Assembly (NCBI GenBank): GCA_024643585.1
Contig: JAHEMP010000003.1
Location: forward strand, 1 to 32,241
Direction of reading: 5' to 3'
DNA length: 32,241 nt
Origin: Crocinitomicaceae bacterium
GTDB lineage: Bacteria; Bacteroidota; Bacteroidia; Flavobacteriales_D; Crocinitomicaceae
The notes below the pieces were generated by a model. The model ran no database searches. It was not told where the DNA came from and saw only the letters and a list, made by a program, of their open reading frames with translations. Position numbers and translations under genes: made by a program. Every line of letters starts with the position of its first letter. Position 1 is the first letter of the stretch. Below, piece by piece: positions 3,190-25,332 of this stretch.

Positions 3190-4833
3190 ATGAAAAAGTA
3201 CATAATTGCTTGTGCGGTTATCGTGTCACTCAATATAGGTGTCAAAGCACAAAATCAAATCGCAAATCTTCAAGGAATCAATTATCAGGCAGTAGCAATT
3301 GACGATGAATCACATGAAATAGTTGGTAGCGACGTTATTGGAAAACCGCTGTATGAAAGAGAAATTGGTGTTCGTTTTACAATTACAAATGGTCCCTCTG
3401 GAGCAACCACCTATTATTCTGATGAACATACAATAACTACTGATAGATATGGGATGTTCTCACTGACAATTGGACTTGGCACATATCTTAATGGTGATTT
3501 CACTTCCTTATTAGACATTCCTTGGATCAATGGTGATCAATGGTTATTGGTTGAGGTTTCTTCCAACAATAATGGACAGTATAATGAGGTAAGTTACCAA
3601 AAGTTCATGTCTGTCCCTTTTGCTTATTATTCAGACGACATCTCCGACAATTCAATTACAACCTATAAAATTGTTGACGAGACAATACAAGCCATTGATA
3701 TTGACACAGGAGCAGTTGAAACATCTGAAATTTTAAATGAAACAATCCTTGCCGAAGATATTGCAACTGGTGCCGTTGAGACTTCAGAAATTTTGAATGA
3801 AACAATCCTTGCTGAAGACATTGCAACAGGTGCAGTTGAAACATCTGAAATTTTAAATGAAACAATCCTTGCCGAAGATATCGCAACAGGTGCAGTCGAA
3901 ACATCTGAAATTTTGAATGAGACAATTCTTGCAGAAGACATAGCAACAGGTGCAGTTGAGACTTCTGAAATTTTGAATGAAACAATACTTGCTGAAGATA
4001 TTGCAACAGGTGCCGTTGAGACTTCTGAAATTTTGAATGAAACTATCCTTGCGGAAGACATAGCAACAGGTGCAGTTGAAACATCTGAAATTTTGAATGA
4101 AACTATCCTTGCTGAAGACATCGCAACAGGTGCCGTTGAAACATCTGAAATTTTGAATGAGACAATTCTTGCAGAAGACATAGCAACAGGTGCAGTTGAG
4201 ACTTCTGAAATTTTGAATGAAACTATTCTTGCGGAAGATATTGCAACAGGTGCAGTTGAGACTTCTGAAATTTTAAATGAAACAATTCTTGCGGAAGACA
4301 TTGCAACTGGTGCAGTGGCAACTGATGAGATTTTGGATGGAACGATTCAGAATCAAGATATACAAAATGGTACAATAGACTTGACTTCCAAAGTAACTGG
4401 TATTCTTCCTCCAGTGAACGGTGGAACTGGAATTAATGGCAGTGCGGCTGGACCGGGTACGGTACTAATAGGAAATGGCACTGGATACACACTTAATACA
4501 TTAACTCCAGGTACTGGAATAGCAATTGCTAATACACCAGGTGGTATTGAAATCTCAACGACAATTACTGGAGGTGTTAATTCAAACATTGCTGGAAACG
4601 TAAACCCGAACAATATCACCGCAGGAAGCACTTGGATTTCACCAGCAATACCTTTACAAGGCGTAGTGTATGGAAATATCATTGTTGGTTCTATTAACAC
4701 TAACCTTCAAGGGTGTCAAATGACTTGCTTTGTATCCAGTAGTAACATTATTAAGGTTGCTATTTTTAATGGTACAGGAAGTAATGTTAACCTAGGTAAT
4801 GGTCTGCAACTGAGAGTTGTGGTTGTGCAGTAG
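3190..4833 (+). CDS. Secreted/surface repeat protein with ten perfect 20-aa repeats and tail-fibre-like GGTG region
   Basis: Signal peptide; N-terminal 'GINYQAVAIDD...' domain common in Bacteroidetes surface proteins; ETSEILNETILAEDIATGAV x10; 'ILPPVNGGTG' segment reminiscent of phage tail-fibre repeats. Confidence 0.8.
   Translation: MKKYIIACAVIVSLNIGVKAQNQIANLQGINYQAVAIDDESHEIVGSDVIGKPLYEREIGVRFTITNGPSGATTYYSDEHTITTDRYGMFSLTIGLGTYLNGDFTSLLDIPWINGDQWLLVEVSSNNNGQYNEVSYQKFMSVPFAYYSDDISDNSITTYKIVDETIQAIDIDTGAVETSEILNETILAEDIATGAVETSEILNETILAEDIATGAVETSEILNETILAEDIATGAVETSEILNETILAEDIATGAVETSEILNETILAEDIATGAVETSEILNETILAEDIATGAVETSEILNETILAEDIATGAVETSEILNETILAEDIATGAVETSEILNETILAEDIATGAVETSEILNETILAEDIATGAVATDEILDGTIQNQDIQNGTIDLTSKVTGILPPVNGGTGINGSAAGPGTVLIGNGTGYTLNTLTPGTGIAIANTPGGIEISTTITGGVNSNIAGNVNPNNITAGSTWISPAIPLQGVVYGNIIVGSINTNLQGCQMTCFVSSSNIIKVAIFNGTGSNVNLGNGLQLRVVVVQ
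3718..4317 (+). repeat. 60-bp in-frame tandem repeat, 10 units
   Basis: Ten consecutive 60-bp units encoding ETSEILNETILAEDIATGAV; degenerate flanking units KIVDETIQAIDIDTGAV and ATDEILDGTIQNQDIQNGTI. Confidence 0.95.
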
Positions 4834-13024: not shown

Positions 13025-13085
13025 GAAAAAAATCCAACCGCGCCCTTCGACTGCGCTCTGGGTGCTGTTTTTAAATAAAAGGTTT

Positions 13086-13140
13086 CCTTGCCGCTGACTA
13101 AGCGCCTGCCTGTCGACTAGACAGGGAGTCGAAGGCAAGG
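13086..13140. repeat. Composite palindromic repeat element, intergenic copy (core 13100-13132)
   Basis: Nested inverted repeats: CCTTGCC(13086-13092)/GGCAAGG(13134-13140) and CCTGTC(13109-13114)/GACAGG(13120-13125); the 33-bp core matches 24605-24637 at 31/33 positions. Confidence 0.8.
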
Positions 13141-21807: not shown

Positions 21808-24792
21808 TTAATCCTCATATCTCACATCACCAATAAAGTTTATTTTTTTCATGTAGCCAACTTCAATGGCAAAATGACCAAACTCTTCAGAGACGATACC
21901 TGTTATTTCATAAATTCCTTTCCCGTGAAAGCGGTGACGATTGGCAGATTCTGGGAAGTGAACAGAGTCTAAAATTTGACCTTCGATGTCGATGAAATTA
22001 CCGAAAAACATATAATCACCGCGAACAGTTTTGGATTGTTTTAGTGCAACGAGATAGCCGTAGCAGGTCACTTTTAAACCACGTCGTTCAGGAATTTCTT
22101 TCGAAAAAGTGTGCGGTGGAAGTGGCTCGGCTAATAAATCGAATGGGTTGCAAAGTGGAAAACCGATGAGTTCCATTTGTTCAAAAGCACGTTCCAGTTC
22201 GCTATCATTGAGTTTTGGTAGCGTAAAATGTTTTCTCTCCGAAACGAACAATTCAGGTACAGGTGTTTTGTCCTTTACTTTGTTGTGGTACAAATGCGCT
22301 TTCCAAAGTAAACTTTTTCTATCGGAAGGGAAGTCGCGTAAGGCATCTACACGTATGATAATGAGCAATTGTTCCAAAGGAATGTAGCAGCGACTCATCA
22401 GGTTTTCAAAAGAGGTAAATCGGCCGTTTCTGTGACGTTCTTGATAAATTTTCTGAATGATTTTACTTTCAGATCCTTGGATCAAGTTGAATCCTAAAAT
22501 GACGCGTTTCCCAAGGATAATACATTCGTAACCACCTTCATTTATGCTCGGGGGTTCAATTGTTGCACCTAACATTCGAGCTTCGTGCACATAAATTTCA
22601 GTTCGGTAGTAACCGCCAAAATTGTTAATCGTCGCCACCATGTATTCGAGCGGGTAGTGCGCTTTCAAATACAAACTCTGGTAACTTTCTACGGCATATG
22701 AAGCGGAATGACCTTTGGAAAAAGCGTAGCCCGCAAAACTTTCAATTTGCCGCCAAACTTCGGCTGCTAGCTCTTTTGAGTGGCCTTTCTCAAAACAATT
22801 TTTAAAGTAAGCCTCTTCAACTTTTGTAAATTCTGCTCGCGAACGGAATTTGCCAGACATTCCTCTGCGCAGCACATCTGCCTCGCCCAAATCCAAGCCA
22901 GCAAAATAATGCGCGACCTTTATCACATCTTCCTGATACACCATTACACCGTAAGTATCGGGCATAATTTCCATCATAACGGGGTGGGCTTCTTTTCGGC
23001 GTTCAGGAAAACGATGACGTAGGATGTATTCGCGCATCATTCCGGAATGGGAAACACCAGGACGAATGATGGAACTTGCGGCAACCAAAGTCAAATAATC
23101 GTCAACTTGCAATTTTTGAAGCAACATGCGCATGGCGGGTGATTCGACGTAAAAACAGCCAAGTGCTTGTGCATTGCGGAGTATGTGTTTGATTTTTTCA
23201 TCTTGTTTGAAATAGGATAAATCATGAATGTCGTGTGGAGGGTTTTCAGGTTGGTTGTATTCCACAATTTCGAGGCAATCGTGAATTTTTGCTAATCCGC
23301 GCTGACTTAGAACGTCAAATTTATACAAACCAACATCTTCGGCTTCCAACATTGAAAATTGGGTAGTGGGATATCCTTTTGGTGGTAGAAAAGTGGCGGA
23401 ATACCAAGAAATTGGTTTTTCACTTATGACAATTCCTCCTGCATGAACGCTCAAATGCGCCGGCATTCCTTCAATTTGTTTGGCATATTTCAGAACTAAA
23501 ATGGAAAGATTATCCAATTGTTCAATGTTAAATTTCCCTTTGCTCAAAATGTCTAATTCTGATTTCGGCAATCCAAAAACTTTGCCCAATTCCCGAACTG
23601 TTGCTTTGTATTGGAAGGTATTGTACGTGCAAAGTAGCGCCGCATTTTCGTAGCGATTGAAAATATATTGCGTAACATCTTCTCGATCTTTCCACGAGAA
23701 ATCAATGTCGAAATCAGGTGGATTTTTCCGGTATAAGTTGATAAATCTTTCAAAGTAAAGATCCAATTCAAGTGGGTCAACATCTGTGATTCTCAGCAAG
23801 TAAGCTACGATGCTATTGGCACCACTTCCTCTTCCGACATAAAAGTAATTTTTCGATCGAGCGTAGGACGTAAAATCCCAAGTAATTAAGAAATACGACA
23901 AGTAATCTTTCTGAGCAATGATTTCAATTTCCTTGTCAATTCGTGTCAAAATGGCTTCGTTGACAACGGGGTAGCGATACGCTAAACCTTCCATAGTGAG
24001 TTGTCTCAGAAGTTGTAAATCTTCAGTTTTACTTCCGGTGTAGGTATGTACATTTTGTGGTTCGGCATCGTCACCGAACTTGAAATTTAGTTGACAGCCA
24101 GAAAGTAGTTTTTCCATTCGGAATAATAACTCCGAATGTTCGCCCAATTTCTCTAACAATTCACTCTTTGTCAAAAATAAATCGTCGGGCAATCCTTGTT
24201 CTTCAATGGGCAATTTCGAAAGCAGACAATTATTGTCAATGGCGCGCAAAAGTCGATGTGTGTTGAAATCACGCTTGTTGCGAAAAGTCATCGAGTGGAG
24301 GAGAACCATCTTTTTGTCCAATCCCGATTTTTTCTCCCATGTCAAACGATTGAGGTTGGCTAAGGAAATCCCAACAAATTCATTTTCAGTGCATTTCGTT
24401 GGTTCTTTTCCCCAGGGATAAATCACAAAACAATTCCCAAAATGAGGTGCACGCTCTGGAAATTCCATTTTTTTATGCAGGTGCTCTGACAGAAAAACAT
24501 TCAGTTCATGAAATCCACGATTGTTCTTCGCAATCACCACAAAGCATTGCTGTATTCCATTTCGAATATCAGCACCAACAACAGATGTCTTTTCTTCGAG
24601 CTCCAAGCGCCTGCCTGTCGGCGAGACAGGGAGTCGACGAGCGCTGTTTTCCAAACAATAAGCCATGGCTGCGGTGGTTGAATTAATATCAGCTAACGCA
24701 ACTTTGTCCCACCCAGAATTCGTTGCCCATTGGACAATTTCTTCCGGCGAAAGTATGCCGTACTTGAGGCTGAAGTGAGAGTTGCAAATCAT
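21808..24792 (-). CDS. dnaE: DNA polymerase III alpha subunit, short Bacteroidetes-type DnaE (likely accessory/error-prone, next to dinB)
   Basis: PHP-like N-terminus (SHFSLKYGILSPEE), VGRGSGANSIVAYLLRITDVDPLELDLYFERFINLYRKNPPDFDIDFSWKDR, MPAHLSVHAGGIVIS, FAGYAFSKGHSASYAVESYQSLYLKAHYP; 994 aa. Confidence 0.93.
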   Translation of the reverse strand: MICNSHFSLKYGILSPEEIVQWATNSGWDKVALADINSTTAAMAYCLENSARRLPVSPTGRRLELEEKTSVVGADIRNGIQQCFVVIAKNNRGFHELNVFLSEHLHKKMEFPERAPHFGNCFVIYPWGKEPTKCTENEFVGISLANLNRLTWEKKSGLDKKMVLLHSMTFRNKRDFNTHRLLRAIDNNCLLSKLPIEEQGLPDDLFLTKSELLEKLGEHSELLFRMEKLLSGCQLNFKFGDDAEPQNVHTYTGSKTEDLQLLRQLTMEGLAYRYPVVNEAILTRIDKEIEIIAQKDYLSYFLITWDFTSYARSKNYFYVGRGSGANSIVAYLLRITDVDPLELDLYFERFINLYRKNPPDFDIDFSWKDREDVTQYIFNRYENAALLCTYNTFQYKATVRELGKVFGLPKSELDILSKGKFNIEQLDNLSILVLKYAKQIEGMPAHLSVHAGGIVISEKPISWYSATFLPPKGYPTTQFSMLEAEDVGLYKFDVLSQRGLAKIHDCLEIVEYNQPENPPHDIHDLSYFKQDEKIKHILRNAQALGCFYVESPAMRMLLQKLQVDDYLTLVAASSIIRPGVSHSGMMREYILRHRFPERRKEAHPVMMEIMPDTYGVMVYQEDVIKVAHYFAGLDLGEADVLRRGMSGKFRSRAEFTKVEEAYFKNCFEKGHSKELAAEVWRQIESFAGYAFSKGHSASYAVESYQSLYLKAHYPLEYMVATINNFGGYYRTEIYVHEARMLGATIEPPSINEGGYECIILGKRVILGFNLIQGSESKIIQKIYQERHRNGRFTSFENLMSRCYIPLEQLLIIIRVDALRDFPSDRKSLLWKAHLYHNKVKDKTPVPELFVSERKHFTLPKLNDSELERAFEQMELIGFPLCNPFDLLAEPLPPHTFSKEIPERRGLKVTCYGYLVALKQSKTVRGDYMFFGNFIDIEGQILDSVHFPESANRHRFHGKGIYEITGIVSEEFGHFAIEVGYMKKINFIGDVRYED
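24605..24637. repeat. Palindromic repeat core copy embedded in the dnaE CDS
   Basis: AAGCGCCTGCCTGTCGGCGAGACAGGGAGTCGA vs AAGCGCCTGCCTGTCGACTAGACAGGGAGTCGA at 13100-13132 (31/33); inner hairpin CCTGTC-GGCGA-GACAGG. Confidence 0.85.
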
Positions 24793-24910
24793 TTAGTGGA
24801 ATATGGAGTATGGATCGTCCCGAAATCGGGACTGATGGAAAATTATCTTTTGCCCATCAGTGAGCCCGCGAACGCTCTACATTCCATGTTTAATCAGTCC
24901 GAAGGACGGT

Positions 24911-25261: not shown

Positions 25262-25306
25262 ATCATTTATTTTTAAAATTTATCCATCAGTGAGCAAAGC
25301 GAACGC

Positions 25307-25332
25307 TCCATACTCCATACTCCATACTCCAT
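25307..25332. repeat. 7-bp tandem repeat TCCATAC x3 plus partial
   Basis: TCCATACTCCATACTCCATACTCCAT. Confidence 0.9.

Follow-up and report, generated by a model that had tools for sequence, protein, structure and literature searches.

The dnaE gene in a 32,241-nucleotide stretch of DNA from a Crocinitomicaceae bacterium (the whole stretch analysed, hereafter the window) is interrupted in frame by a copy of a dispersed palindromic repeat. The interruption adds 14 codons to a conserved DNA polymerase gene. We consider it likely that, after this lineage had split from its nearest sampled relative, its dnaE received a small non-autonomous palindromic repeat of the REP type.

The insertion in dnaE

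The features at the dnaE locus are as follows.

21808–24792, minus strand: dnaE, host of the insertion, coding for a 994-aa DNA polymerase III alpha-type protein (Pfam DNA_pol3_alpha, DNA_pol3_finger, HHH_6)
24604–24645, minus strand: 42-bp in-frame insertion in dnaE, codons 50–63, SARRLPVSPTGRRL, without counterpart in 29 of 29 homologues
24605–24637, minus strand: 33-bp repeat, of which the other copies lie at rpsO-pnp and folA (31/33 to 13100–13132; 97% to G000:C87:9513–9544)
24610–24630, no strand assigned: inner palindrome CCTGCCTGTCGGCGAGACAGG, a pattern match at zero mismatches, which also occurs in other Bacteroidota

The first 200 residues of DnaE were aligned with those of 29 homologues from relatives, including the same-genus genome G001 (protein 84% identical). 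The 14 extra residues are present in only one of the 30 aligned proteins, which is that of the window. At the junction, the window reads YCLEN-SARRLPVSPTGRRL-ELEEKTSVVG and G001 reads YCLEN-QKENKKSVVG. The initial annotation had correctly read this segment from the minus strand, and its expectation of a short loop in related DnaE proteins, for which an alignment had been set as the test, was borne out by all homologues. It had allowed for 12–19 unique residues; the extra segment is real but comprises 14 residues, not 19, and ELEEKT aligns with QKENKK of G001. The 42 bp that are missing from the homologues span the 33-bp repeat.

The remaining dnaE frame is intact. Relative to G001, dN amounts to 0.11 and dS has reached saturation, which indicates that dnaE is under purifying selection across the genus; as a genus-wide measure, this dN/dS comparison does not date changes made after the insertion. 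Going by the PHP domain in other alpha subunits, we place the insertion after the helix DINSTTAAMAYCLE and before the strand VVGADIRNG. Extra residues are probably tolerated at this position of the N-terminal domain. The loop placement derives from the alignment and from general knowledge of PHP domains: a single-sequence fold of the first 260 residues has a pLDDT of 33, and the N-terminal domain was unaligned in the PDB comparison. In the neighborhood, inverted repeats TGGAATATGGAGTATGGATCGT at 24797–24818 and 25303–25324 bracket the gene for a four-helix-bundle protein between dnaE and dinB.

Three copies of the 33-bp repeat

Outside dnaE, the window carries the following related features.

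13100–13132, minus strand: intergenic copy, flanked by ORFs that were read as rpsO and pnp, matching the dnaE copy at 31/33 positions
13104–13124, no strand assigned: 21-bp inner palindrome; the empty site in G001 is CTGAGC/GGAGTC (the break being the insertion point), from the alignment of five species of the genus
13045–13060, plus strand: partner outer unit of an inverted pair, CTTCGACTGCGCTCTG, from the pattern search of the own genome; such pairing was also seen at folA

The match at 31/33 positions between 24605–24637 and 13100–13132, reported in the initial annotation, was reproduced. The 33-mer also recurs beyond the window: a search of the own draft genome (a single draft of 2.52 Mb in 371 contigs, 82% complete) revealed a third copy at G000:C87:9513–9544 (32 bp, 97% identity, E 6e-9). 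Given the empty site in the homologues and this recurrence, the original proposal stands: a dispersed palindromic repeat has inserted in frame into dnaE. Within the window, four matches to the palindrome were seen (two sites, both strands) versus 0.01 expected from sequence shuffles. A 27-bp composite pattern has three copies in the own genome and was found once each in only two other searched genomes (at up to three mismatches).

The repeat had been described as a hairpin-forming sequence of 33 bp. The hairpin is imperfect, with an RNA minimum free energy of −19.9 kcal/mol over 55 nt. All six frames of the dnaE copy are open. In the dnaE frame, the other two copies have TAG where the dnaE copy has TCG. 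Variants with TCTCGCC are present in other genomes too; either a stop-free variant was inserted into dnaE or the stop was lost afterwards. A clear target-site duplication was not seen. Three palindrome copies from the database (L077, L078, L079) are flanked by 5-bp direct repeats (ATTAT, AAATT, and AAATT, respectively), which are possible target-site duplications.

A palindrome nested in an outer repeat

The element comprises two different repeats, with a 21-bp palindrome inside an outer repeat. All three composite copies consist of the outer repeat (in a mutated form in dnaE) with the palindrome CCTGTCTNGYCGACAGGCAGG in its centre. The outer repeat has the core CTTCGACTNCGCTCAG and often occurs as inverted pairs that are able to form long hairpins. 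It is found at 19 sites in the own genome at up to two mismatches, several of them in inverted pairs, compared to 6 sites for a reversed control. Among 40 relatives, 22 also carry it, with a maximum of 52 matches (in G013), and the reversed-pattern control is near zero.

The rpsO-pnp spacer of G001 contains the outer inverted pair with its centre, CTGAGC/GGAGTC, uninterrupted, and the window has 21 extra bases there. The outer pair is absent from this spacer in G002, G003, and G004. At the 3′ end of folA in G003, the stop codon is followed by an outer-like unit without the palindrome. A gain of the palindrome in the lineage of the window is the simplest reading, given how widespread the plain outer repeat is and that this genome alone showed the composite.

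A related palindrome, TCCCTGCCTGTCGGCAGACAGGGA, is found in near-identical surroundings on two contigs (L004, position ~646; L005, position ~1501), apparently just downstream of rRNA genes. The window contains a further repeat, a tandem array of 60-bp units at 3541–4440 within the ORF at 3190–4833, which encodes a repeated 20-residue unit, TGAVETSEILNETILAEDIA.

Copies inside other genes

The third composite copy is located at the 3′ end of folA (gene G000:C87:9003–9563, L092), and the reading frame runs through it, making the dihydrofolate reductase about 20 residues longer. In the nearest relatives the protein ends with FQVKQYTRN or FQVNHYVRI, and here it reads on as FQVNKYTLALPSTPCLADRQALNQHQKN. 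As judged from the reading frames, two of the three composite copies, those in dnaE and folA, should thus be translated.

Two further cases come from other genomes. In G304, the palindrome (one mismatch) lies in frame in a gene for NAD(P)H-hydrate epimerase/dehydratase (NnrE/NnrD), and this insertion gives the protein six more residues than in five congeners and seven more than in a sixth. In G024, the outer repeat lies in frame in the gene for the type I restriction protein HsdR, which thereby has eight additional residues in comparison with two plasmid-borne homologues and four in comparison with a third. These are independent in-frame cases in separate genes and lineages.

The palindrome is rare in the class, with 6 of 395 genomes at one mismatch, the own genome included. 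Its exact 22-base form has 22 matches in 84,980 species genomes, mostly in Bacteroidota and with 11 in a single Saprospiraceae draft; short or low-complexity ORFs that overlap these database copies were left out of the gene count. Three of the 22 exact matches are of the prepilin-like leader-peptide kind: type IV prepilin-like leader peptides hold the same palindrome, reading ACLSARQG/FTLIEL, in L072, L090, and L091 (three MAGs, one of them Moranbacteria).

Search for a mobilizing transposase

A Y1 transposase (RAYT, PF01797) was not detected in the own draft, where at 82% completeness an absence is not final. Such a transposase is present in 26 of 40 relatives. The outer repeat was found within ~1.5 kb of none of 30 Y1 loci of relatives (89 kb in all), and near the same loci the palindrome gave a single weak match with three mismatches. 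A RAYT is thus not supported as the mover of the element. Mobility in trans by a transposase may be supposed.

Proposed explanation and alternatives

In the explanation that we favor, the inserted unit would be the outer repeat with the 21-bp palindrome nested in its centre. Three properties may explain why the insertion was kept: its length corresponds to exactly 14 codons, the inserted variant lacks a stop in the frame that is used, and the site falls where extra residues are probably tolerated. The insertion would be translated and would be nearly neutral for the polymerase. The small number of composite copies (three) speaks against this explanation. We read it as a nested REP-like element that is carried neutrally at a permissive position.

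Instead of transposition, recombination, gene conversion, or template switching between copies might have spread the composite, which would have entered dnaE by illegitimate recombination. In G001 (at rpsO-pnp) and G003 (at folA), an outer unit is already present at nearly the same position, so that conversion of an old copy suffices at these two loci, and the transposase search described above is also in line with such a route. At dnaE, however, the outer repeat is absent from every sampled relative, so that a fresh insertion is needed there. We regard this route as possible but doubtful. Less probable still is that the insertion is functional, with an mRNA hairpin or a basic peptide altering the expression or activity of the polymerase and selection keeping the insertion. 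Genes of replication and repair, with DnaE2 as one example, are reported to contain intragenic REPs often (PMC3733652), and dnaE of the window is close to dinB. However, the insertion occurs in a single lineage, so that conservation gives no support, and the other copies are in unrelated places (the folA end and the rpsO-pnp spacer), as neutral insertion predicts. That the segment is an ancestral DnaE loop which was lost in all relatives, with an accidental likeness to a repeat, is hardly credible: its absence from all 29 homologues refutes an ancestral loop, and the 31/33 identity to the intergenic copy and the shuffle expectation exclude an accident.

A more general proposal would be a nested palindromic pair in which one repeat inserts specifically at the centre of its partner. 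Such a pair would be spreading through Bacteroidota as well as into other phyla and would time and again provide conserved enzymes with in-frame peptide segments, by means of a non-RAYT mover; we consider this rather unlikely.

As congeners have empty sites, the dnaE insertion is a clean before-and-after example of how selfish DNA contributes a new stretch to a conserved DNA polymerase. It adds dnaE and folA of a Bacteroidota lineage to the genes in which palindromic repeats have inserted in frame, with one repeat nested in another. The availability of close relatives makes an old question testable, namely whether such repeats seed new protein segments.

Comparison with known systems

REPs with GTAG and CGTC tags have been described, the latter also in Bacteroidetes, and in-frame REPs have been reported in genes of repair and replication, such as DnaE2 and the DnaE of Rickettsia conorii (PMC3733652). 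In-frame REPs have also been found inside tnpAREP genes of subclass 2.4, which are abundant in Cyanobacteria and Bacteroidetes (PMC6006769). The DNA and peptide strings of the present element had no match in the literature searched.

Like the intragenic REPs (PMC3733652), which are palindromes of 20–40 bp that occur singly or as inverted dimers, some of them in frame in genes, the outer repeat is a dispersed short palindrome that often forms inverted dimers. The intragenic REPs are tagged with GTAG or CGTC, whereas the present element has no conserved tag, consists of two nested repeats, and resides in a Bacteroidota host. A conserved GTAG or CGTC foot was not found among the three copies: CGTC is confined to the dnaE copy, at its edge, whereas both other copies have CTTC, and GTAG is absent. 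A Y1 gene flanked by the repeats, as in REP/RAYT systems, was found neither in the own draft nor among the 30 loci of relatives.

The initial annotation had pointed to Rickettsia palindromic elements (RPEs). With respect to behavior, the resemblance persists: RPEs insert in frame, with translation expected within unrelated host proteins, and the 14 residues in DnaE are likewise an in-frame insertion in a conserved protein-coding gene. Two details need refining: the element here combines two different repeats, one nested inside the other, and the insertion measures only 42 bp, whereas a greater length is described for RPE-1 (PMC3733652). The subclass 2.4 REPs inside tnpAREP genes (PMC6006769) also keep the reading frame, but they reside in a transposase gene and have a GT[AG]G foot, whereas the hosts here are dnaE and folA and such a foot is lacking. 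The proposed colonization of genes by a Bacteroidetes repeat family is borne out on a small scale (in dnaE and folA of this genome, in NnrE/NnrD and HsdR of others), and the two published studies (PMC3733652; PMC6006769) weaken the claim that the repeat is wholly new in kind. Events of this type were known before; what appears to be new is an untagged nested element that, in this lineage, has inserted into dnaE and folA.
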